This document shows positions 12,301 to 48,802 of a stretch of DNA of 64,000 bases, piece after piece. The DNA lies in contig JAANDG010000220.1 of NCBI GenBank assembly GCA_036852015.1, positions 122,001-186,000 of the forward strand, read 5' to 3'. Under the pieces are notes generated by a model. That model did no database searches. It was given only the letters and a program-made list of their open reading frames with translations, and was not told the origin of the DNA. A program made the translations under genes and the position numbers. Within the stretch, counting starts at the first letter, position 1. The number at the start of each line of letters is the position of its first letter. The DNA comes from Pelodera strongyloides. Its lineage: Eukaryota > Nematoda > Chromadorea > Rhabditida > Rhabditidae.

Positions 12301-15300
12301 ATAGTTCTCTCGAAATTATCGTCTAAATATCCGTTTAGTAATAAGCTAGAAGTGAAAAACTAGATAATAGGAGTAGTTCTCTCGAAATTATCGTTTCATA
12401 GTACAAATTGCAAAGGAGAACACAATTTTTTTACACGAAGCGCGAATAGTTTAAAGCGAAATACCGGCCGGTTTTTGAAACGCATCGAGTCACCAACATT
12501 CTTATGCGTCATATGCACATGAACATAATTTATCATAATTTATCAATTTATCATATGCTTTAAAAACTCGGGGCGTGAGTTCCTTAACATCGGCTATAAA
12601 GCATGTTATTACACCGACAAAACATCCAACAATACGTATTCAAAAACAGAGATCAAACAAATAATCGCCTATTTGATTAAAAACAGCTTTCTAATTTTCA
12701 AAAATGAGGTTTTCCATCAAATAAAGGGAGTACCACAAGGAGGTAACGCATCACCGTTACTTGCAGATCTTACTCTTTCTATGTTAGAATTCAGATACCT
12801 TAAGGATCCTACTAACATCCAGTTAAGTCGCAATGCTAAAATATATAGGTATATGGATGATATTCTATTGTTATATAATCATGATAATATCCCCAATAAG
12901 TTACAAAATATATACCCTAACGCTCTAACTCTAGAACAGGCGAATGAAGCAGACAAGGAAGCAGCATTTCTAGATTTATACCTCAGTAAGCATGACAAAT
13001 GGATAATTAATCTGTACAATAAAACAGACGATTACTCATTCGAAGTCAATAGGTTTCCTATCTATGACACAAAATTATGTATTTCAATCAAACATAACTG
13101 CATAATAGGAGAAACCCTACGAATTAACCGTTGTACGTCAAATTTAGTCCTTTTCAAAGCTAAACTTACCGAATTTTATAATAAACTATTCAAGAATGGA
13201 TACCCAAAGGATGTTGTTATAAATATGTACATCAAATGTTTTAATGTTTACCCCATATTATCTCACAAGTACAGAACTTCCGCTAAATCTCTTATTGCCT
13301 GGGTTCGTTCCACATTTGCAATCAATTGATCGAGATAAGACACATTTCACCGGGTAGCAATTAGAATATGAGGTCACTGTTAACGCAACGCAACACACAG
13401 ATTATCCATGGATACGCAACGCATAGCTATAGCACATTGGTAAGAACATATGTATATACATATGACGTTACCTACACACCGTCATCCCCCACATTTTTAT
13501 AATTTTTAACCATTATTAGTCATTTTAACTGATCAACTTTTAGTCAGGGTGTCGTACTGACGAGACCCCCACCCTGATTAAAAAATCCTCGTCTACGACA
13601 GGGGTCGAAACGAGGTCCGTGTTTTGCACGGTAATTATATTCACTCAATACATTCTAACTTTAATAATTATTATTATTTACATTCATACATTTTTATATT
13701 TATAATAATATTTGTTTATTGTTCAAGGTCTAGGATATAACTGTTGGAGGATTAATTTCCCCACGTTACATCCGAGGACCATAAGTTTTTTCTTCTAACC
13801 TTTTTATTATTGTATTTTTACCTTTTCCTGCCATTTATTTGGTGGGCCAAGTCCTTTGGGACTCTTCTCTATCTCTCGAGATGGAGTATGCTCTTATGAG
13901 CATGACACCTGCCATATGGCGGGTTTAGTCCTTATGGACTATTTTGTACATGTATAATATACATGTATATACATATCTTTATACTATTTTATTATTTTCA
14001 TTATTATTTTCTTTCCTACCTTTGGGTGGGTCAAGCCAATGTGGCTGTCCTCTATCCGTCAGGATGGAGAATGTTCCTCGGAACATACACACCTTCCTAC
14101 AAGGAGGGTTTATCCCTTTGGGATTTTAATCCGTTTTTTTCGGATAAATTTTTCTTATATTTCTATCTAAAAGATATTTACAACTATATATATGTCTATG
14201 TTTTGCAACCATATCTATGTTTTGCAACTATATCTATATTTTTAATTTTTTTTGCACAAAATATATTGAAAAATCTTTGATCTTACTACGCAAAACTACA
14301 ATTCATCACGATATTTTTCAGTTGGTTTTTTATTAACCACGCACATAAGGTACTTCTTTACATAATTATGGTACTCTATAAACATTCACGTCAATAATTC
14401 TTGAACTTTCATCAGCTCATTTGGGTTTTCGGGCTTCAATTTACTGTTACTTGTGAGGTAGCAGACAATTACTATTTGTCAACACTGTACGATCATTCTC
14501 ATACATTAACAACTCTTTGTGGCACAACTATATATATATTCATTTTCTTACTGTCACAATCATTTTCCAATGATTACAATATACGTATAATTTAACAAAT
14601 TCAACTTCATATTTCATAAACTACGTATACTGTAATCATTTATATACTTTCAATAACACATGTCGGATTACTATGATTGTTGGAGGCTTTGATGTCGATT
14701 CTTACTTTACAAATTCATTATTTTGGTCTCCTAGTCGCTATGATGGGGGCAGAAATTACAATCATACTATTACATTTATATTGTACTGTTCACTTCTCAT
14801 CTCTGATAGGGGCCTAGGCGGTTTAATGGTGTTAGACTGGGAGCTCACCATGGACCCTGAGGAGCCCTAGCGACAACATGGTAGAGGTTTTTACTTTGAA
14901 ACCGCCATGGGGTCCTTAGGTTGGACCGAAGTGCTCCCTGTAACACCTTACCTCTGAAGCCTAGGGCGGCGGAAAGAGGAACACTGTATGCCCTACGAAT
15001 ACCCAAAATGCATATTTTCTTTGTAAAACTTTAAGTTCAACTAAGCTTTGCCCGAAAATGTACATTACATCTCTACAAGGTACTCAAGAATTTGGCGTTC
15101 CTTGTGGAAGTAATAGATGTAAATTGTGTCCTAGCATTTCATTTGAACAAGTCATACGTAGTAACTCAACCAAATACTTTTCTAACCTATATGGAACCTC
15201 ATCTTCCAACTGTTGTAGTAAAGGAGTAATATACTGTATAACATGCGGAAAGTGTGGAATACAGTATGTCGGAGAGACTAAACGTACTTTAAAAGCTCGT

Positions 15301-18300
15301 TTGGTTCAGCATAGATGGCATTTTAAGAAAAATTCGCAAGATACCATCTTGTACAAACACTTTTCTGACTGCCAGCGTGCCACAGACAATAAAATTTTCA
15401 CACTTCACTTACTTGATGCACTGGAAGAAAATAAGAATGATTCACTTCGTAAAGATAAAGAAGTTTTTTGGATAAAACTGCTTAATAGTGCATTTCCCTA
15501 TGGTTTGAATGACCAAATCAAAGGTTATGGAATTATAAGCGATCGCAGTAAATCAGGACTAGGTAATTCCAATATACCTTATTGGTCTCTAAAAATTATT
15601 AGACCTTATAAGATCCGTGGTCCTAGAAAACGACGCAGTGTCGATAAAAATCCTGTTGAAGAGCTAGATCTGTCCGTTCTGACATCATACGACAAATTGC
15701 ACGATTATAATTTTTCTTTGCGTAAATCTGCAAAGAAATTCTTATTGCGAGAATACCACGATAACGATATGTCTCATTTACAACGTAAATACATAGAAGC
15801 GTTGTGTGGTAGATTGACTATACCAGATCGGAATGCAAAACCGACCACTAAGCCAAAACAACCGGACTTCAAGTTAAGTATTCCCTTTTACGATGACAAA
15901 AAATCACCTAATTTGCAATATTTAATTAAAAAACGTATCAAGGAATATTTTCTTAATAATAATATTAATGTGGAAAAACGTCCATTTATTCGTTTCTATT
16001 ACAAGTACAATATTCCTAATGGTCCTAAACTGTTTAACTATAAGGATCACACTACAAATAACATAGTTATCGATCAGTGCCATTGTGATGAGTATTTGCA
16101 ATTCTGTACTAACAAAGAAAAGATCATTCTAGATAATACTGAGCACATAATAACTGGTAATTCGGATATTTTCTTAGATAAATTTCCTAATGCTGTCAAA
16201 GTATTGCAAAAAGGTACCAAATACCGAGAAACATTCACGAAAAAATGGTTGCAAAAGTTGATTGATTGTTTAAAACGAGACTTAAAAGAAAAATTAAGCA
16301 AATATTGTAACAAGCATGGGTTAACTACATCATCTTCATTAAATATCGATGATATTATTTCTTTTGTTTGTAACCATGCCGAACCATCTTCCGTTAATAA
16401 TGAAGAACTTGCAATAATTAGAAAACAATTTGTTATCACATGCGTTGACAAAGCCCCTAGTAATTTCTGTTTTAGTTGTCCACGCTTGTATAAAATGTTC
16501 TTAGAACAGGAACTAGGAAATAGCGGTGGTCGCACTATTGGCAATGAAACATATTCTCCTTACAATGTACGTACTATAGAAAATATTATAAATGATCACA
16601 AGGCATTTTCTAGCCTGTTTAAAATTAAATTACTGGAGGAAGACTTGATTCTGCCTAATATGTATGCCATTCCAAAACTACATAAGGAAAGTATAAAAAT
16701 GAGATTTATTACCGCTGCTAAACGTAGTAGCCTTAAACAATTATCTATACTCGTACAAAAAGCCTTAAAGCATCTAAAATCTCATTTCAAAAACTATTGC
16801 AACGCCTCTTGCAATTGGTCTACAAATACATACACTCACTTTTCTATAGATAATTCGCTAATTATCACTAATGGATCTGATATAAACAAGTTTGAAAAGA
16901 TAAAAACCTTAGATTTTGCAAGCTTATTTACCAATCTACCACATAATATTATTGTTAGCAATATTTCTGAATTAATAGACATATGCTTTAAAAACTCGGG
17001 GCGTGAGTTCCTTAACATCGGCTATAAAGCATGTTATTACACCGACAAAACATCCAACAATACGTATTCAAAAACAGAGATCAAACAAATAATCGCCTAT
17101 TTGATTAAAAACAGCTTTCTAATTTTCAAAAATGAGGTTTTCCATCAAATAAAGGGAGTACCACAAGGAGGTAACGCATCACCGTTACTTGCAGATCTTA
17201 CTCTTTCTATGTTAGAATTCAGATACCTTAAGGATCCTACTAACATCCAGTTAAGTCGCAATGCTAAAATATATAGGTATATGGATGATATTCTATTGTT
17301 ATATAATCATGATAATATCCCCAATAAGTTACAAAATATATACCCTAACGCTCTAACTCTAGAACAGGCGAATGAAGCAGACAAGGAAGCAGCATTTCTA
17401 GATTTATACCTCAGTAAGCATGACAAATGGATAATTAATCTGTACAATAAAACAGACGATTACTCATTCGAAGTCAATAGGTTTCCTATCTATGACACAA
17501 AATTATGTATTTCAATCAAACATAACTGCATAATAGGAGAAACCCTACGAATTAACCGTTGTACGTCAAATTTAGTCCTTTTCAAAGCTAAACTTACCGA
17601 ATTTTATAATAAACTATTCAAGAATGGATACCCAAAGGATGTTGTTATAAATATGTACATCAAATGTTTTAATGTTTACCCCATATTATCTCACAAGTAC
17701 AGAACTTCCGCTAAATCTCTTATTGCCTGGGTTCGTTCCACATTTGCAATCAATTGATCGAGATAAGACACATTTCACCGGGTAGCAATTAGAATATGAG
17801 GTCACTGTTAACGCAACGCAACACACAGATTATCCATGGATACGCAACGCATAGCTATAGCACATTGGTAAGAACATATGTATATACATATGACGTTACC
17901 TACACACCGTCATCCCCCACATTTTTATAATTTTTAACCATTATTAGTCATTTTAACTGATCAACTTTTAGTCAGGGTGTCGTACTGACGAGACCCCCAC
18001 CCTGATTAAAAAATCCTCGTCTACGACAGGGGTCGAAACGAGGTCCGTGTTTTGCACGGTAATTATATTCACTCAATACATTCTAACTTTAATAATTATT
18101 ATTATTTACATTCATACATTTTTATATTTATAATAATATTTGTTTATAAAAAAAAATAGACCCCAATTAGAGCCCACTTCGCATAAATCCATAAGAATGC
18201 AGTTGTCCACGATGAGTTTCAAAAACGGGCGAACGGGCGTAAGTGCGCAAAATAAGCAAAAATCCCTTGGGAAGTCACACGCTGAAAACGCTTCACTTAA

Positions 18301-33911: not shown

Positions 33912-34479
33912 GTCAGATGGAGTTATTATAACTACTGTAATTAGTACTCACATGACCGTACCAAATACAGCTTACATAAAAATAGGCTTTAAATTGTCTG
34001 CATTGTGTAGTAATATAGACGAGTTCTGTCTGTCACGTTTCAGATCGTAGGTTAGCAGTAGAGCTAAGGACTTGGGTCTTCGGCCTTAAGGTCCTTAGGG
34101 AAAAATAAGAATTAGCTTTTTTCTGATTATCGATTGCTTATCAGATAATCGATATATGATGATTAAAAAATAAAAGTTGAAGCTTAGACCCCTAAACGCA
34201 ATAACTTTAGGTGAATCGAATTTTGATCAAATCAAAAATCGATAAATCGATAATCTAAATTTTGGCAACTTGCCAACTGAACTTAAGCACTTCCCAGAAC
34301 ATAGTGAAATCGTCAGCAGACATCGAAAAATTCATCATGAGCTTCTGGCCTGGGACCCTGGCTAACGTGCTCCATATGGAGAACGAAGAATGTTGACACA
34401 GAAAAAAATCAATAATCAATCGATAATTTTTTTGAGGGCTAAAACTCGGCTTAGGAGTTGAGATAGCGACTCGGGCCCT

Positions 34480-37400
34480 CTGATCAATAATGCTCAACTT
34501 CGAAAGATAAATTGAATGATCAGTTTGAAAAAATCGATATCGATCGATAATCCATAGAAATCGCAAAAACAGATCCAGATCCGGCTTCGGAACAGAGATA
34601 GAGACTCGGGCCCTCTGATCAATAATGCTCAACTTCGAAAGATAAATTGAGTGATCATTTTGAAAAATCGATATCGATCGATAATCCATAGAAATCGCAA
34701 AAACAGATCCAATCCGGCTTCGGAACAGAGATAGAGACTCGGGCCCTCTGATCGATATGCTCAACTTCGAAAGATAATTGAATGATCATTTTGAAAAAAT
34801 CGATATCGATCGATAATCCATAGAAATCGCAAAAACAGATCCAGATCCGGCTTCGAACAGAGATAGAGACTCGGCCCTCTGATCAATAATGCTCAACTTC
34901 GAAAGATAAATTGAATGATCATTTTGAAAAATCGATATCGATCGATAATCCACAGAAATCGCAAAAACGGATCCAGATCCGGCTCGGAACAGAGATAGAG
35001 ACTCCGGCCCTCTGATCAATAATGCTCAACTTCGAAAGATAAATTGAGTGATCATTTTGAAAAAATCGATATCGATCGATAATCCATAGAAATCGCAAAA
35101 ACAGATCCAGATCCGGCTTCGGAACAGAGATAGAGACTCGGGCCCTCTGATCAATAATGCTCAACTTCGAAAGATAAATTGAATGATCATTTTGAAAAAA
35201 TCGATATCGATCGATAATCCATAGAAATCGCAAAAACAGATCCAGATCCGGCTTCGGAACAGAGATAGAGACTCGGGCCCTCTGATCAATAATGCTCAAC
35301 TTCGAAAGATAAATTGAATGATCATTTTGAAAAAATCGATATCGATCGATAATCCATAGAAATCGCAAAAACAGATCCAGATCCGGCTTCGGAACAGAGA
35401 TAGAGACTCGGGCCCTCTGATCAATAATGCTCAACTTCGAAAGATAAATTGAATGATCATTTTGAAAAAATCGATATCGATCGATAATCCATAGAAATCG
35501 CAAAAACAGATCCAGATCCGGCTTCGGAACAGAGATAGAGACTCGGGCCCTCTGATCAATAATGCTCAACTTCGAAAGATAAATTGAGTGATCATTTTGA
35601 AAAAATCGATATCGATCGATAATCCACAGAAATCGCAAAAACGGATCCAGATCCGGCTTCGGAACAGAGATAGAGACTCGGGCCCTCTGATCAATAATGC
35701 TCAACTTCGAAAGATAAATTGAGTGATCATTTTGAAAAAATCGATATTGATCGATAATCCATAGAAATCGCAAAAACAGATCCAGATCCGGCTTCGGAAC
35801 AGAGATAGAGACTCGGGCCCTCTGATCAATAATGCTCAACTTCGAAAGATAAATTGAATGATCATTTTGAAAAAATCGATATCGATCGATAATCCATAGA
35901 AATCGCAAAAACAGATCCAGATCCGGCTTCGGAACAGAGATAGAGACTCGGGCCCTCTGATCAATAATGCTCAACTTCGAAAGATAAATTGAATGATCAT
36001 TTTGAAAAAATCGATATCGATCGATAATCCATAGAAATCGCAAAAACGGATCCAGATCCGGCTTCGGAACAGAGATAGAGACTCGGGCCCTCTGATCAAT
36101 AATGCTCAACTTCGAAAGATAAATTGAATGATCATTTTGAAAAAATCGATATCGATCGATAATCCATAGAAATCGCAAAAACAGATCCAGATCCGGCTTC
36201 GGAACAGAGATAGAGACTCGGGCCCTCTGATCAATAATGCTCAACTTCGAAAGATAAATTGAATGATCATTTTGAAAAAATCGATATCGATCGATAATCC
36301 ATAGAAATCGCAAAAACAGATCCAGATCCGGCTTCGGAACAGAGATAGAGACTCGGGCCCTCTGATCAATAATGCTCAACTTCGAAAGATAAATTGAATG
36401 ATCATTTTGAAATATCGATATCGATCGATAATCCATAGAAATCGCAAAAACAGATCCAGATCCGGCTTCGGAACAGAGAGATAGAGACTCGGGCCCTCTG
36501 ATCAATAATGCTCAACTTCGAAAGATAAATTGAATGATCATTTTGAAAAAATCGATATCGATCGATAATCCATAGAAATCGCAAAAACAGATCCAGATCC
36601 GGCTTCGGAACAGAGATAGAGACTCGGGCCCTCTGATCAATAATGCTCAACTTCGAAAGATAAATTGAATGATCATTTTGAAAAAATCGATATCGATCGA
36701 TAATCCATAGAAATCGCAAAAACAGATCCAGATCCGGCTTCGGAACAGAGATAGAGACTCGGGCCCTCTGATCAATAATGCTCAACTTCGAAAGATAAAT
36801 TGAATGATCATTTTGAAAAAATCGATATCGATCGATAATCCATAGAAATCGCAAAAACAGATCCAGATCCGGCTTCGGAACAGAGATAGAGACTCGGGCC
36901 CTCTGATCAATAATGCTCAACTTCGAAAGATAAATTGAATGATCATTTTGAAAAAAATCGATATCGATCGATAATCCATAGAAATCGCAAAAACAGATCC
37001 AGATCCGGCTTCGGAACAGAGATAGAGACTCGGGCCCTCTGATCAATAATGCTCAACTTCGAAAGATAAATTGAATGATCATTTTGAAAAAATCGATATC
37101 GATCGATAATCCATAGAAATCGCAAAAACAGATCCAGATCCGGCTTCGGAACAGAGATAGAGACTCGGGCCCTCTGATCAATAATGCTCAACTTCGAAAG
37201 ATAAATTGAATGATCATTTTGAAAAAATCGATATCGATCGATAATCCATAGAAATCGCAAAAACAGATCCAGATCCGGCTTCGGAACAGAGATAGAGACT
37301 CGGGCCCTCTGATCAATAATGCTCAACTTCGAAAGATAAATTGAATGATCATTTTGAAAAAATCGATATCGATCGATAATCCATAGAAATCGCAAAAACA

Positions 37401-39015
37401 GATCCAGATCCGGCTTCGGAACAGAGATAGAGACTCGGGCCCTCTGATCAATAATGCTCAACTTCGAAAGATAAATTGAATGATCATTTTGAAAAAATCG
37501 ATATCGATCGATAATCCATAGAAATCGCAAAAACAGATCCAGATCCGGCTTCGGAACAGAGATAGAGACTCGGGCCCTCTGATCAATAATGCTCAACTTC
37601 GAAAGATAAATTGAATGATCATTTTGAAAAAATCGATATCGATCGATAATCCATAGAAATCGCAAAAACAGATCCAGATCCGGCTTCGGAACAGAGATAG
37701 AGACTCGGGCCCTCTGATCAATAATGCTCAACTTCGAAAGATAAATTGAATGATCATTTTGAAAAAATCGATATCGATCGATAATCCATAGAAAATCGCA
37801 AAAACAGATCCAGATCCGGCTTCGGAACAGAGATAGAGACTCGGGCCCTCTGATCAATAATGCTCAACTTCGAAAGATAAATTGAATGATCATTTTGAAA
37901 AAATCGATATCGATCGATAATCCATAGAAATCGCAAAAACAGATCCAGATCCGGCTTCGGAACAGAGATAGAGACTCGGGCCCTCTGATCAATAATGCTC
38001 AACTTCGAAAGATAAATTGAATGATCATTTTGAAAAAATCGATATCGATCGATAATCCATAGAAATCGCAAAAACAGATCCAGATCCGGCTTCGGAACAG
38101 AGATAGAGACTCGGGCCCTCTGATCAATAATGCTCAACTCAACTTCGAAAGATAAATTGAATGATCATTTTGAAATATCGATATCGATCGATAATCCATA
38201 GAAATCGCAAAAACAGATCCAGATCCGGCTTCGGAACAGAGATAGAGACTCGGGCCCTTTGATCAATAATGCTCAACTTCGAAAGATAAATTGAATGATC
38301 ATTTTGAAAAAATCGATATCGATCGATAATCCATAGAAATCGCAAAAACAGATCTAGATCCGGCTTCGGAACAGAGATAGAGACTCGGGCCCTCTGATCA
38401 ATAATGCTCAACTTCGAAAGATAAATTGAATGATCATTTTGAAAAAATCGATATCGATCGATAATCCATAGAAATCGCAAAAACAGATCCAGATCCGGCT
38501 TCGGAACAGAGATAGAGACTCGGGCCCTCTGATCAATAATGCTCAACTTCGAAAGATAAATTGAATGATCATTTTGAAAAAATCGATATCGATCGATAAT
38601 CCATAGAAATCGCAAAAACAGATCCGGAACCGGCTTCGGAACAGAGATAGAGACTCGGGCCCTCTGATCAATAATGCTCAACTTCGAAAGATAAGTTGAA
38701 TGATCAGTTTGAAAAAATCGATATCGATCGATAATCCATAGAAATCGCAAAAACAGATCCGGAACCGGCTTAGGAACAGAGATAGAGACTGGAGCCCTCT
38801 GATCGATATTGCTCAACTGTGAAAGATAAGTTGAATGATCAGTTTGAAAAAATCTATATCGATCAATAATCCATAGAAAACGCAAAAACAGATCCAGATA
38901 CGGCTTAGGAACAGAGATAGAGACTGGAGCCCTCTGATCGATATTGCTCAACTGTGAAAGATAAGTAGAATTGTGCAATTCAGAAAATCGATATCGATCG
39001 ATAATCCATAGAAAT
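34480..39015. repeat. 135-bp satellite array, about 33 units
   Basis: Units are nearly identical in the middle and diverge at both ends (length indels near 34760-34870, 36415-36475 and 38130). Each holds ATCGATATCGATCGATAATC, a dense ATCGAT palindrome block. The period is a multiple of three, which creates long minus-strand open frames (up to 528 codons) that are not genes. Confidence 0.95.
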
Positions 39016-39029
39016 CGCAAAAAGGGTGC

Positions 39030-40100
39030 CAATTTCACCTTAGCTCAAAAGATAACGATGAAAATAAAGTTCAATGCTAAAGTGAAGCGTGAATTAGAGA
39101 GAGATTGCCGATCGTGCTTCTGATTCAGAATCTATGACGTCAGAAATAAGTCGACGTGCAAATTTCGCCGTAGCTAAAAGATAACGATGAAAATGGACTT
39201 GAGTGATCAAGTGAAGATGGTATCAGAAAAACATTCTCGTTCACACTTCTGCTTCAGAATCTGTGACGTCCAAGTAAATCGACGTACAAAGTTCACCGTA
39301 GATAAAAAGTAACGATGCAAATTGACTCCCGTGCTGAAGCGAAGCATGCATCAGAGACAGATTGTCGATCGTGCTTCTAATTCAGAATCTATGACGTCAA
39401 AAATAAGTCGAAGTGCAAAGTTCACGGTAGATCAAAAGTAACGATGCAATTCGACTCCCGTGCGAAACGAAACATGCATCAGAGATAGGTTGTCGATCGC
39501 GCATCTGATTCAGAATCTATAACTTCAAAAAAATAAGTCGACGTGCAAATTTTGCCGTAGCGCAAAGATAACGATGAAAATCGACTTCTGTGATCTCGCG
39601 TCCGAGGCAAATTGTCGATCACGCTTCTGCTTCAGAATCTATGACGTCCAAAGTAGGTCGACGTGCAAATTTCGCCGTAGATCAAAAGTAATGATGCAAA
39701 TCAACTCCAATGCTGAAGCGAAGCATGCATCAGAGACAGATTGTCGATTGCGCTTCTGATTCAGGATCTATGACGTCCAAAGTAAGTCGACGTGCAAATT
39801 TCGCCCGTAGATCAAAAGTAATGATGCAAATCAACTCCAATGCTGAAGCGAAGCATGCATCAAAGACAGATTGTCGATTGCGTTTCTGATTCAAAATCTA
39901 TGACATCAAAAACAAGTCGATGTGCAAAGTTCACCGTAGATCAGCAGTAACGATGCAAATCGACTTCAGTGATCAAGAGGAGCTCGCATCAAAGACAGAC
40001 TCTACATCACGATTCTGCTTCAGAATCGATGACGTCAAAAATGAGCTAACGACTAAACTCTGAATCTCATATAGAAATCTTCAAAATAAAGATGAAGCCA
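39030..40100. repeat. Second tandem repeat within Helitron copy 1 (about 120 bp)
   Basis: About eight diverged units share CAGAATCTATGACGTC, AAGTCGACGTGCAAATTTCG and CCGTAGATCAAAAGTAACG. The same unit recurs twice in each of copies 2 and 3. Confidence 0.75.
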
Positions 40101-40227
40101 ATTCAGTGTAGTGCCAATCTGAACCTAAACTTCAAACATTAAAATCGTTAGCTTATCAAGAACAAAAGCTCAAGCTAAAGCCATATCGCTAGAGCGAGGC
40201 GCGCGCGCAGCGCGCGCCGAGCTCTAG

Positions 40228-43200
40228 TCTGCATTGTGTAGTAATATAAGGAGTTCTGTCTGTCTGTCACGTTTCAGATCGTTGGTTAGCAGTAGAGCTA
40301 AGGACTTGGGTCTTCGGCCTTAGGGTCCTTAGCGAAAATTAAGAATTAGCTTTTTTCCGATTATCGATTGCTTATCAGATAATCGATATCTGATAACCGA
40401 AAAAATGAAACCTATCCTAAACGCATCCACTATCGACGTGATGAAAAAATGATCCAATCAAAAAAAAATCGATAAATCGATAATCTAAATTTTGGCAAGT
40501 TGCCAACTGAACTTAAGCACCTCCCAGAACATAGTGAAATGACAGAAAACGGTGAAAAATTTATCGAGAGCTTCTGATCCTGGGACCCTGGCTAACGTGG
40601 TCAGGCTGGAGAACGAAGAATGTTGGCACAGAAAAAAATCAATAATCAATCGATAATTTTTCCGAGAGCCAAAAATCGCCTTAGGAGTAGAGATAGAGAC
40701 TCGGGCCCTCTGATCAATATTGTTCAGCTTCGAAAGATAAGTTGAATAGTGAAATTGAAAAAATCAATATCGATCGATAATCCATAGAAATTGCAAAAAA
40801 GATCCAGAATCGGCTTAGGAACATAGATAGAGACTCGAGCTCTCTGATCAATATTGTTCAGCTTCGAAAAATAAGTTGAATAGGTTGAAAAAATCAATAT
40901 CGATCGATAATCCATAGAAATTGCAAAAACAGATCCAGAATCGGCTTAGGAACAGAGATAGAGACTCGAGCCCTCTGATCAATATTGCTCAACTCTCAAA
41001 GATAATTTGAATTGTGAAATTGAAAAAATCAATATCGATCGATAATCCATAGAAACCGCAAAAACAGATCCAGAACCGGCTCAGGAACATAGATAGAGAC
41101 TCGAGCCCTCTGATCAATATTGCTCAACTCTCAAAGATAATTTGAATTGTGCAATTGAAAAAATCAATATCGATCGATAATCCATAGAAATCCGCAAAAA
41201 AGATCCAGAATCGGCCTTAGGAACAGAGATAGAGACTCGAGCCCTCTGATCAATATTGCTCAACTCTCAAAGATAATTTGAATTGTGAAATTGAAAAAAT
41301 CAATATCGATCGATAATCCATAGAAACCGCAAAAACAGATCCAGAACCGGCTTAGGAACATAGATAGAGACTCGAGCCCTCTGATCAATATTGCTCAACT
41401 CTCTCAAAGATAAGTTGAATTGTGCAATTGAAAAAATCAATATCGATCGATAATCCATAGAAACCGCAAAAACAGATCCAGAATCGGCTTAGGAACAGAG
41501 ATAGAGACTCGAGCCCCTTTGATCAATATTGCTCAACTCTCGAAAGATAATTTTGAATTGTGAAATTGAAAAAATCAATATCGATCGATAATCCATAGAA
41601 ATCGCAAAAACACAGATCCAGAATCGGCTTAGGAACAGAGATAGAGACTCGAGCCCTCTGATCAATATTGCTCAACTTCGAAATATAAGTTGAATAGTGT
41701 AATTGGAAAATCAATATCGATCGATAATCCATAGAAATCGCAAATAAAGTGCCAAAACTGGGCTTAGGAGTAGAGATAGAGACTCGAGCCCTCTAATCAA
41801 CATTGTTCAACTTCGAAAACTAAGTTGAATGATGAAATTGAAAAATCGATATCGATCGATAATCCATAGAAATTGCAAAAACAGATCCAGAACCGGCTTA
41901 GGAACATAGATAGACTCGAGCCCTCTGATCAATATTGCTCAACTTCGTAAGATATGCTCAATAATGAAATTAAAAAAAATCAATATCGATCGATAATCTA
42001 TAAAAATCGCAAAAACAGATCCAGAACCGGCTTAGTAGTCGAGATAGAGACTCGAGCCCTCTGATCAATATTAGTTGAATGATGAAATTGAAAAAAATCA
42101 ATATCGGTCGATAATCCACAGAAATCGCAAAAAGAGATCGAGAACAAGCTTAGGAACAGAGATAGAGACGAGCCCTCTGATCAATATTGCTCAATCGCCA
42201 AAGATAAGATGAATTGTGAAAGCGAATATCGATCGGATTCACAAAAAATCGCAAAATGGTCTTAGGAGTAAAGATAAGAGCTCAGCTCTCCGATCAATAT
42301 TGCACAGCTTCTGAAGGTGAAATAACATCCTCTAAAGTAAACCACAACGAACGTTGATGCGAGCGAGGCGGGCCGAAGCCTCGCCGAGTGAGCTAACGAC
42401 TATAAATCAGAATCCCTCGATCAACATTGCTCAAATTTAAAAGATAAGTTGAATGTTGAAATTCAAAAAATCAATATCGATCGATTATCCATAGAATTCC
42501 CCAAAATGGTCTTAGGAGTAGTGATAGAGCTGAGCACTCTGATCAACATTGCATAAGTTCCGCTATGATCAACATTCAGGTGAAATAAGATCCTCCTAAG
42601 AAAACCACAACGAACGTTGATGCGAGCGAGGCGGGCCGAAGGCCCGCCGAGTGAGCTAACGACTATAATCCCGAATCTTAATCAAAATCCTCAACATTGA
42701 GCCATATTAATGCAATAGCTTAAAGATAAAGGTGGAAATGAACTTCAGTGCTCAAGTGAAGCTCGCATCCTAAACCGCTTCTCGATCACGCTTCTGCTTC
42801 AGAATCTATGACGTCAAACATAAGTCGACGTGCAAATTTCGCCGTAGCTCAAAGAAAACATAACTACGATAACGATGGAAATGAACAACCTTGAATCATA
42901 GTGAACGTCGGGCGAGCGAAGGCGGGCCGAATGCCCGCCGAGCGAGCTAACGACTAAAGTCCGAATCTCTTAAAAAATCTTTAAAAAATCAAAATGAAGA
43001 TGATAATCCCGAATCTTAATCAAAATCTTCAAAATTGAGCCATATTAATGCAATAGCTTAAAGATAAAGGTGGAAATGAACTTCAGTGCTCAAGTGAAGC
43101 TCGCATCCTAAACCGCTTCTCGATCACGCTACTGCTTCAGAATCTATGACGTCAAACATAAGTCGACGTGCAAATTTCGCCGTAGCTCAAAGAAAACATA

Positions 43201-43452
43201 ACTACGATAACGATGGAAATGAACAACCTTAAATCATAGTGAACGTCGGGCGAGCGAAGGCGGGCCGAAGGCCCGCCGAGCGAGCTAACGACTAAAGTCC
43301 GAATCTCTTAAAAAATCTTTAAAAAATCAAAATGAAGATGAAGCTAATTCAGTGTAGTGCCAATCTGTACCTTAACTTCAAACATTGAAATCGTTAGCTT
43401 ATCAAAATCTCAAGCTCAAGCTAAAGCCATATCGCTAGAGCGAGGCGCGCGC
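40228..43452 (+). mobile_element. Helitron-like element, copy 2 (3' hairpin truncated)
   Basis: Starts TCTGCATTGTGTAGTAATAT directly after the CTAG of copy 1. It holds a diverged, shorter array of the same repeat (40690-42300) and three G+C-rich hairpins of the form GAGGCGGGCCGAAGGCCCGC. It stops inside its 3' hairpin (GAGGCGCGCGC), where copy 3 begins. Confidence 0.7.
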
Positions 43453-46400
43453 TCTGCATTGTGTAGTAATATAGAGCAGTTCTGTCTGTCTGTCACGTTT
43501 CAGATCGTTGGTTAGCAGTAGAGCTAAGGACTTGGGTCTTCGGCCTTAGGGTCCTTAGCGAAAATTAAGAATTAGCTTTTTTCCGATTATCGATTGCTTA
43601 TCAGATAATCGATATCTGATAACCGAAAAAATGAAACCTATCCTAAACGCATCCACTATCGACGTGATGAAAAATGATCCAATCAAAAATCGATAAATCG
43701 ATAATCTAAATTTTGGCAAGTTGCCAACTGAACTTAAGCACCTCCCAGAACATAGTGAAATGACATAAAACGGTGAAAAATTTATCGAGAGCTTCAGATC
43801 TGGGACCCTGGCTAACGTCTTCGGCCTTAGGGTCCTTAGCGAAAATTAAGAATTAGCTTTTTTCCGATTATCGATTGCTTATCAGATAATCGATATCTGA
43901 TAACCGAAAAAATGAAACCTATCCTAAACGCATCCACTATCGACGTGATGAAAAATGATCCAATCAAAAATCGATAAATCGATAATCTAAATTTTGGCAA
44001 GTTGCCAACTGAACTTAAGCACCTCCCAGAACATAGTGAAATGACATAAAACGGTGAAAAATTTATCGAGAGCTTCAGATCTGGGACCCTGGCTAACGTA
44101 GTCAGGCTGGAGAACGAAGAATGTTGGCACAGAAAAAAATCAATAATCAATCGATAATTTTTCCGAGAGCCAAAAATCGCCTTAGGAGTAGAGATAGAGA
44201 CTCGGGCCCTCTGATCAATATTGTTCAGCTTCGAAAGATAAGTTGAATAGTGAAATTGAAAAAATCAATATCGATCGATAATCCATAGAAATTGCAAAAA
44301 CAGATCCAGAATCGGCTTAGGAACATAGATAGAGACTCGAGCTCTCTGATCAATATTGTTCAGCTTCGAAAAATAAGTTGAATGGTCAGGTTGAAAAAAT
44401 CAATATCGATCGATAATCCATAGAAATTGCAAAAACAGATCCAGAATCGGCCTAGGAACAGAGATAGAGACTCGAGCCCTCTGATCAATATTGCTCAACT
44501 CTCAAAGATAATTTGAATTGTGAAATTGAAAAAATCAATATCGATCGATAATCCATAGAAACCGCAAAAACAGATCCAGAACCGGCTCAGGAACATAGAT
44601 AGAGACTCGAGCCCTCTGATCAATATTGCTCAACTCTCAAAGATAATTTGAATTGTGCAATTGAAAAAATCAATATCGATCGATAATCCATAGAAACCGC
44701 AAAAACAGATCCAGAATCGGCTTAGGAACAGAGATAGAGACTCGAGCCCTCTGATCAATATTGCTCAACTCTCAAAGATAATTTGAATTGTGAAATTGAA
44801 AAAATCAATATCGATCGATAATCCATAGAAACCGCAAAAACAGATCCAGAACCGGCTCAGGAACATAGATAGAGACTCGAGCCCTCTGATCAATATTGCT
44901 CAACTCTCAAAGATAATTTGAATTGTGCAATTGAAAAAATCAATATCGATCGATAATCCATAGAAACCGCAAAAACAGATCCAGAATCGGCTTAGGAACA
45001 GAGATAGAGACTCGAGCCCTTTGATCAATATTGCTCAACTCTCAAAGATAATTTGAATTGTGAAATTGAAAAAATCAATATCGATCGATAATCCATAGAA
45101 ATCGCAAAAACAGATCCAGAATCGGCTTAGGAACAGAGATAGAGACTCGAGCCCTCTGATCAATATTGCTCAACTTCGAAATATAAGTTGAATAGTGTAA
45201 TTGGAAAATCAATATCGATCGATAATCCATAGAAATCGCAAATAAAGTGCCAAAACTGGGCTTAGGAGTAGAGATAGAGACTCGAGCCCTCTAATCAACA
45301 TTGTTCAACTTCGAAAACTAAGTTGAATGATGAAATTGAAAAATCGATATCGATCGATAATCCATAGAAATTGCAAAAACAGATCCAGAACCGGCTTAGG
45401 AACATAGATACAGACTCGAGCCCTCTGATCAATATTGCTCAACTTCGTAAGATATGCTCAATAATGAAATTAAAAAAAATCAATATCGATCGATAATCTA
45501 TAAAAATCGCAAAAACAGATCCAGAACCGGCTTAGTAGTCGAGATAGAGACTCGAGCCCTCTGATCAATATTAGTTGAATGATGAAATTGAAAAAAATCA
45601 ATATCGGTCGATAATCCACAGAAATCGCAAAAAGAGATCGAGAACAAGCTTAGGAACAGAGATAGAGACGAGCCCTCTGATCAATATTGCTCAATCGCCA
45701 AAGATAAGATGAATTGTGAAAGCGAATATCGATCGGATTCACAAAAATCGCAAAAATGGTCTTAGGAGTAAAGATAAGAGCTCAGCTCTCCGATCAATAT
45801 TGCACAGCTTCTGAAGGTGAAATAACATCCTCTAAAGTAAACCACAACGAACGTTGATGCGAGCGAGGCGGGCCGAAGCCTCGCCGAGTGAGCTAACGAC
45901 TATAAATCAGAATCCCTCGATCAACATTGCTCAAATTTAAAAGATAAGTTGAATGTTGAAATTCAAAAAATCAATATCGATCGATTATCCATAGAATTCC
46001 CCAAAATGGTCTTAGGAGTAGTGATAGAGCTGAGCACTCTGATCAACATTGCATAAGTTCCGCTATGATCAACATTCAGGTGAAATAAGATCCTCCTAAG
46101 AAAACCACAACGAACGTTGATGCGAGCGAGGCGGGCCGAAGGCCCGCCGAGTGAGCTAACGACTATAATCCCGAATCTTAATCAAAATCCTCAACATTGA
46201 GCCATATTAATGCAATAGCTTAAAGATAAAGGTGGAAATGAACTTCAGTGCTCAAGTGAAGCTCGCATCCTAAACCGCTTCTCGATCACGCTTCTGCTTC
46301 AGAATCTATGACGTCAAACATAAGTCGACGTGCAAATTTCGCCGTAGCTCAAAGAAAACATAACTACGATAACGATGGAAATGAACAACCTTGAATCATA

Positions 46401-46973
46401 GTGAACGTCGGGCGAGCGAAGGCGGGCCGAATGCCCGCCGAGCGAGCTAACGACTAAAGTCCGAATCTCTTAAAAAATCTTTAAAAAATCAAAATGAAGA
46501 TGATAATCCCGAATCTTAATCAAAATCTTCAAAATTGAGCCATATTAATGCAATAGCTTAAAGATAAAGGTGGAAATGAACTTCAGTGCTCAAGTGAAGC
46601 TCGCATCCTAAACCGCTTCTCGATCACGCTACTGCTTCAGAATCTATGACGTCAAACATAAGTCGACGTGCAAATTTCGCCGTAGCTCAAAGAAAACATA
46701 ACTACGATAACGATGGAAATGAACAACCTTAAATCATAGTGAACGTCGGGCGAGCGAAGGCGGGCCGAAGGCCCGCCGAGCGAGCTAACGACTAAAGTCC
46801 GAATCTCTTAAAAAATCTTTAAAAAATCAAAATGAAGATGAAGCTAATTCAGTGTAGTGCCAATCTGTACCTTAACTTCAAACATTGAAATCGTTAGCTT
46901 ATCAAAATCTCAAGCTCAAGCTAAAGCCATATCGCTAGAGCGAGGCGCGCGCGCAGCGCGCGCCGAGCTCTAG
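43453..46973 (+). mobile_element. Helitron-like element, copy 3
   Basis: Nearly identical to copy 2 over its length, with a 281-bp internal tandem duplication (43536-43816 repeated at 43817-44097). It keeps the full 3' hairpin and ends GAGCTCTAG followed by T, as expected for Helitron insertion. The high identity to copy 2 suggests a recent tandem event. Confidence 0.75.
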
Positions 46974-48623: not shown

Positions 48624-48802
48624 CGTGAAATAGCGGCCGGTTTTTGAAACGCATCTAGCAGACCAGCATTCTTATGCAGCTTATGCAAATGAACACAAAT
48701 TAGAATAAAAACTAGACCCCAATTAGACCTCACTTTGCATAAATGCATAGGAATGCAAGTACTTGAGATGCGTTTCAAAAACCGGCCGGTATTTCGCTTT
48801 AA
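48624..48802. mobile_element. TTAA hairpin MITE, best-preserved long member
   Basis: Left GTGAAATAGCGGCCGG, right CCGGCCGGTATTTCGCTTTAA; the arms form a long hairpin. This copy shows the full family layout used to recognise the copies at 12451/18148, 27848, 29097 and 58436. Confidence 0.8.

Follow-up and report, generated by a model that had tools for sequence, protein, structure and literature searches.

The segment at 13538-13615 of the 64,000-nucleotide stretch of Pelodera strongyloides DNA analysed here (the window) very probably encodes a functional hammerhead ribozyme of type CSG, located in the pseudo-LTR (3' region) of a Naiad-type Penelope-like retroelement. The parts of the ribozyme and of its host element are listed below.

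12552-13719, plus strand: upstream partial unit (ORF end and 3' region; pseudo-LTR arrangement), equal to 16980-18147
13538-13550, plus strand: fourth helix, 5' strand, pairing with 13571-13583
13551-13556, plus strand: stem I, 5' strand, pairing with 13594-13599
13557-13563, plus strand: block C core CUGACGA (C3-A9, N7 being C13561), by direct reading; only N7 varies freely among 58 distinct profile matches
13564-13569, plus strand: stem II, 5' strand, pairing with 13601-13606
13571-13583, plus strand: fourth helix, 3' strand, pairing with 13538-13550
13587-13592, plus strand: stem III strand of block S, its last base being U16.1, pairing with 13610-13615
13593-13594, plus strand: predicted cleavage site between H17 (C13593) and U13594, by homology with hammerheads and CSG-1/CSG-2
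13594-13599, plus strand: stem I, 3' strand, by direct reading
13601-13606, plus strand: stem II, 3' strand, by direct reading
13607-13610, plus strand: block G core GAAA (G12, A13, A14, A15.1), by direct reading and profile matches
13610-13615, plus strand: stem III strand of block G, by direct reading
13617-13631, plus strand: accessory hairpin 3' of the ribozyme, by folding, in 14 of 18 sequences
13720-18147, plus strand: full element unit of 4428 bases, delimited by the repeat boundaries
15058-17757, plus strand: Naiad-type ORF of 899 aa, with GIY-YIG at residues 55-144, CxC at 341-343 and RT at 543-754
17966-18043, plus strand: second ribozyme copy (fourth helix to stem III), identical, 3' of the ORF

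Direct reading confirmed to the base the claim of the initial annotation that all hammerhead core nucleotides are present, with CUGACGA at 13557-13563, GUC at 13591-13593 and GAAA at 13607-13610; in hammerhead numbering, the first of these is C3-A9, the last is G12-A15.1, and U16.1-H17 fall at 13592-13593. The three 6-bp helices and the A15.1-U16.1 pair that it described were found as well, this pair lying within stem III, as were A13600, the single base between the far ends of stems I and II, and the 10-bp fourth helix (13541-13550/13571-13580), which contains one G-U pair (G13543-U13578) and can be extended to 13 bp (13538-13583). U13550 has two possible partners, A13571 in the fourth helix or A13600 in stem I. 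The blocks follow each other in the order C (CUGACGA), S (GUC) and G (GAAA), which is type CSG. The opposite, non-canonical strand order noted initially is therefore real, but it is not new, as it had already been published in 2023 as type CSG on the basis of two metagenomic sequences (PMC10085705).

Eckert, Friedrich, Weinberg and Weinberg (2023) defined six block orders and found type SGC and two type-CSG sequences (PMC10085705). The latter, CSG-1 and CSG-2, are two similar sequences described from metagenomes only, for which that study names neither host nor element and calls the covariation modest; both RNAs self-cleave in vitro at the equivalent site, at 0.004 and 0.026 per minute (PMC10085705). 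Judged from their published description, they resemble the motif studied here in size (77-78 nt constructs), in having their blocks in the order C-S-G with every conserved core nucleotide, and in the helix by which the far ends of stems I and II are connected (PMC10085705). The present motif differs in occurring in a large genome, in one retroelement type and in approximately 13 families, several of which have one extra or bulged nucleotide at stem II. Type SGC (HRIMA-1), described in the same study, shares the opposite cyclic order and the helix linking stems I and II but differs in its first block, being a circular permutation, and in its source, metatranscriptomes (PMC10085705). No report tying permuted or type-CSG hammerheads to Naiad-type elements was found in the literature searched, and the Naiad-type home of the motif, its spread over so many families and its strong covariation appear to be new.

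The motif is carried by a truncated unit followed by the full unit, an arrangement known from Penelope-like elements as a pseudo-LTR structure; the repeat at 12552-13719 and 16980-18147 is identical at 1168 of 1168 bases, and the ORF sits between the two motif copies. This repeat, the second motif copy and the hairpin at 13617-13631 are additions to the initial annotation. The endonuclease domain encoded by this ORF (GIY-YIG, PF01541, residues 55-144) was matched with an E-value of 0.0019 and 18.9 bits, under the curated 22.6; PF01541 was matched by six of 12 aligned members, with E-values up to 0.01, and the short endonuclease motif Y.GET was present in eight of 12 other translated loci. The C-terminal RT domain (PF00078, E 4.6e-9, residues 543-754) has YMDD at 741, and the CxC between the domains is CHC at 341-343; both YMDD and CxC were present in all 12 other translated loci. 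This order, with an N-terminal GIY-YIG and a C-terminal RT, is what we take to be the permuted order that defines Naiad elements. Craig et al. (2021) are said to have described Naiads as having an N-terminal GIY-YIG, a CxC, a C-terminal RT, pseudo-LTRs and tandem copies, and our assignment to the Naiad type rests on these criteria, namely the domain order, the CxC and the pseudo-LTR or tandem arrangement. The same elements are reportedly described there as lacking canonical hammerhead motifs, and we know of no mention of a permuted hammerhead in Naiads in that work.

Head-to-tail copies lie approximately 4.4-4.8 kb apart in several families. Because the 1168-base repeat is identical and at least seven identical 91-base copies of the motif occur in the genome among the matches listed, recent activity of the element is suggested. 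Both flanks (12458-12532 and 18144-18230) resemble neighbouring segments of a further repeat, located at 48627-48786, and these matches suggest the bounds of the insertion; this short repeat itself looks like the uninterrupted form of the insertion site. A separate part of the window (34460-46841) is occupied by large arrays of a 135-base tandem repeat and its longer-period relatives, and ORFs within 34255-39038 on the minus strand have scattered Pfam matches that look like tandem-repeat artefacts.

Searching the 160-Mb assembly, the one genome from which all compared sequences come, with the element protein gave at least 53 matches with 47-100% identity (51 of 661 candidates scored). We assembled 55 loci, of which 30 ORF loci and an additional 15 3' flanks came from this search and 10 from a second one, and left out L054-L065, whose places were already included. 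The core and stems I-III were intact in 48 of the 55 Naiad-type loci, the fourth helix not being demanded; this number takes in every motif within the retrieved sequence, also those of near-identical copies or of elements next to the locus, so that the loci are not independent, and the annotator calls a motif intact only with CUGANGA, GAAA and a non-G H17. Four loci had partial motifs (L014, L041, L048 and L074) and three had none: the 3' side of L028 looks like unrelated sequence, the flank of L050 is cut by the contig end at 508 bases, and in L072 a Naiad-like ORF end is followed on its 3' side by 901 bases without a recognisable ribozyme. The motif was on the coding strand in all 34 matches among the 30 ORF loci. 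Loci with intact motifs fall into approximately 13 by-eye families, whose proteins share as little as 47% identity, and the copy numbers are lower bounds (40 scored of 183, 390, 105 and 176 candidates, and 23 of 23 in another search). Among 20 further, hand-picked diverged copies, 10 had intact and 10 had partial motifs, the latter as expected of old copies decaying. When 16 representative 3' flanks were aligned pairwise, the motif aligned in 74 of the 120 pairs and other sequence in 11, not all of these pairs being between families, as several flanks come from one family (for example, L034 and L037). The related loci thus bore out what had been claimed for the window, namely the hammerhead core, the opposite cyclic order, the closure by a fourth helix and the Naiad-type setting.

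The core letters were assessed in a search that did not demand them, which returned 102 profile matches, 58 of them distinct, and for which all 20 diverged copies were eligible, the profile itself still favouring look-alikes. Each fixed place of CUGANGA was kept in at least 53 of 54 distinct matches, each place of GAAA in 57 or 58 of 58, N7 was C in 29, U in 24 and A in two, and H17 was either C (31) or A (26) in all 57, never G or U. In hammerheads, N7 alone is free to vary within this block and the cleavage site follows NUH. A fixed core, a free N7 and an H17 that is C or A form the pattern expected of catalysis.

Covariation was assessed in 18 of 24 distinct annotated sequences, after five near-duplicates and one sequence cut by the locus end had been dropped, and in a 13-family set with one sequence for each by-eye family; L077 was the only one of the 20 diverged copies to enter these tests. 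In the 18 sequences, the strands of stem I formed 5.50 of six pairs with their own partners against 4.91 when swapped, a total reached by 0 of 2000 shuffles, and those of stem II 5.00 of five against 4.90 (15 of 2000 shuffles); in the 13 families, each stem was reached by 0 of 5000 shuffles, all these tests ignoring kinship, so that relatedness among the sequences inflates them. Both-sided changes occurred at three of the six pairs of stem I (A-U/G-C at two and C-G/U-A at one), whose outermost pair was also U-A in two of the 13-family set and was open in eight of 17 sequences. Stem II had an A-U/G-C exchange at one pair in the 18 sequences and both-sided changes at two of six pairs in the 13 families, in which its sixth pair was C-G in eight, A-U in two, G-C in two and unpaired in one. 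In L011, L013, L018, L019 and L023, one extra base lies between CUGANGA and stem II, or a bulge follows the first pair or pairs. The linkers between stems I and II measured 0-4 nt.

The fourth helix differed in sequence, with equivalent pairing, in each of the 13 family representatives, examples of its arms being GUCAGGGU/ACCCUGAU, GCUGUAGU/ACUACAGC, CCACCGGGG/CCCCGGUGG, AAUUGCGG/CCGCAAUU and GUGGCACGG/CCGUGUCAC. Own arms paired with -15.5 kcal/mol against -6.3 kcal/mol for swapped arms (0 of 20000 shuffles), and the own partner was the best one in 11 of 13. Stem III was fully paired in the 18 sequences, with U-A, U-G and C-G steps at one pair, and reached nine pairs in L077; its covariation was not above that of shuffles in either the 18 sequences (320 of 2000) or the 13 families (1389 of 5000). 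In alignment A1, made with MAFFT, 96.0% of cells were paired, against 32-49% with partners slid by one to three columns; three of its rows (the window, L011 and L013) are out of register in stem II and so weigh against the structure. One of five measures on A1 went against the structure (further pair types, 8 versus 10.0 in shuffles), and another was weak (pairs changed on both sides, 4 versus 2.4, reached by 37 of 500 shuffles). Whether related elements keep the helices had been named in the initial annotation as a decisive question, and stems I and II and the fourth helix proved to be both conserved and covarying.

A hairpin 3' of stem III was found in 14 of the 18 folded sequences, some of these hairpins being no better than shuffles, and was absent from L018, L033, L075 and L073. 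Its arms differ among families, and the between-family arm test was weak (212 of 20000 shuffles, with 12 of the 13 families, L077 being too short). This hairpin may be an accessory part, perhaps aiding the folding of the ribozyme or binding the element's protein.

A scan of both strands of the window for all six block orders, with stems of at least 4/4/4 bp, found only the motif (core at 13557) and its copy (core at 17985), and the cyclic order C-G-S of canonical types I, II and III was absent. The same scan of 60 dinucleotide-shuffled windows gave four matches in total, none with three 6-bp stems; the flexible annotator was positive in none of 1950 shuffled 900-base 3' flanks, and a 5/5/5 any-order scan was positive in one of 800 shuffled loci. 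A canonical order among the relatives, which had been named as evidence for a scrambled copy, was not found when 38 loci were scanned for all six orders with 4/4/4-bp stems, CSG being the only order present. Rfam at gathering thresholds gave nothing within the window, and the Hammerhead_1 model scored 14.7 bits against its threshold of 34, as expected because the stems of this fold cross. The nested fold of the motif region is unusually stable (z -4.57). It resolves into two unconnected hairpins and replaces stems I and II by small inner stems; pseudoknots are beyond what the folding program can represent. These inner stems are competitors of stems I and II and were judged by eye, in a few families, not to be conserved.

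We propose that two hairpins would form in the order of transcription, the fourth-helix hairpin with block C in its loop and then the stem III hairpin, whose loop would contain the scissile position and the first bases of block G. Pairing between the two loops would form stems I and II and with them an ordinary hammerhead core, which would cut within one molecule between C13593 and U13594, the new ends being a 2',3'-cyclic phosphate and a 5'-OH. The fourth helix and stem III have their far ends on either side of the core, with few bases, most of them A, to connect these ends, and this could possibly put the fold under strain. A tandem transcript cut at both copies would yield a 4428-nt unit-length RNA (13594-18021) with the whole ORF inside, and we infer that the cutting of tandem transcripts to unit-length RNAs is the most likely role of the ribozyme.

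It is rather improbable that the core is instead built between two copies, with block S cut by blocks C and G of another unit or another RNA, either in the canonical type III order across approximately 4.4 kb or as a trans dimer resembling the hammerhead dimers of other Penelope-like elements. Tandem units could put both partners in one transcript, the covariation of stems I and II fits pairing in cis or in trans equally, and minimal type I hammerheads of Penelope-like elements may self-cleave as dimers (PMC7761336). However, the fourth helix and the short linkers between stems I and II keep the strands within one copy, stems I-III are full length, unlike those of the minimal hammerheads, and self-cleavage in vitro is known for short RNAs that carry one type-CSG motif (PMC10085705).

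We consider it very unlikely that the motif is a conserved RNA structure for the element's protein, acting in binding, priming or packaging, that is not, or is no longer, mainly catalytic. Strong conservation beside the ORF and the frequent accessory hairpin would suit such a signal, and so would the finding that the PAc hammerhead cleaved only with protein present and that insertion in vitro did not depend on it (PMC11167929). Nevertheless, the unpaired catalytic places are fixed while the helices change, and the restriction of N7 to C, U or A and of H17 to C or A but not G in the 58 distinct profile matches is the expected catalytic pattern. Chance, or the scrambled decay of a canonical hammerhead, is scarcely credible and is refuted for this genome, for although hammerhead motifs are short and some copies are clearly decayed, no shuffled flank was positive, one arrangement recurs across approximately 13 families with compensatory changes, and the canonical order occurred in none of the 38 loci scanned for all six orders.

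A functional type-CSG ribozyme in this position would have counterparts in Penelope-like elements and Terminons, whose minimal type I hammerheads (Cervera and de la Pena 2014, cited in PMC7761336) likewise lie in the pseudo-LTRs of tandem Penelope-like elements but have the canonical order, a minimal or missing stem III and no tertiary loop contact, and are possibly dimeric (PMC7761336). For PAc, a canonical Penelope-like element, it is reported that the hammerhead cut only with protein added, that ribozyme mutants left insertion in vitro unchanged, and that no RNA-seq reads start or stop at the hammerhead site (PMC11167929). These findings on PAc weigh against the reading proposed here.

No relatives were found in viral contigs with three element protein queries and protein alignment A2, nor in genome contigs with one element protein query, and the conservation described here accordingly holds within one genome. 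Motif DNA patterns had no matches in viral contigs and none in genome contigs, and a looser DNA pattern matched six viral stretches, none with the CSG fold even at 3/3/3 bp; one of them (L101) has a loose GSC-order match elsewhere in it. As a tentative extension, the pseudoknotted CSG fold might be the hammerhead of Naiads at large, unseen by standard searches, and the orphan metagenomic CSG pair might derive from such elements.

With this work, one of the rarest hammerhead arrangements reported is given a biological setting, numerous natural cases and covariation, which had been rated modest at its discovery, and RNAs of this kind can be missed by nested-structure models such as those of Rfam. 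The role of ribozymes in these retroelements becomes testable in a second architecture and, if the finding were extended to other species, it would answer why Naiads reportedly seemed to lack the hammerhead of other Penelope-like elements.
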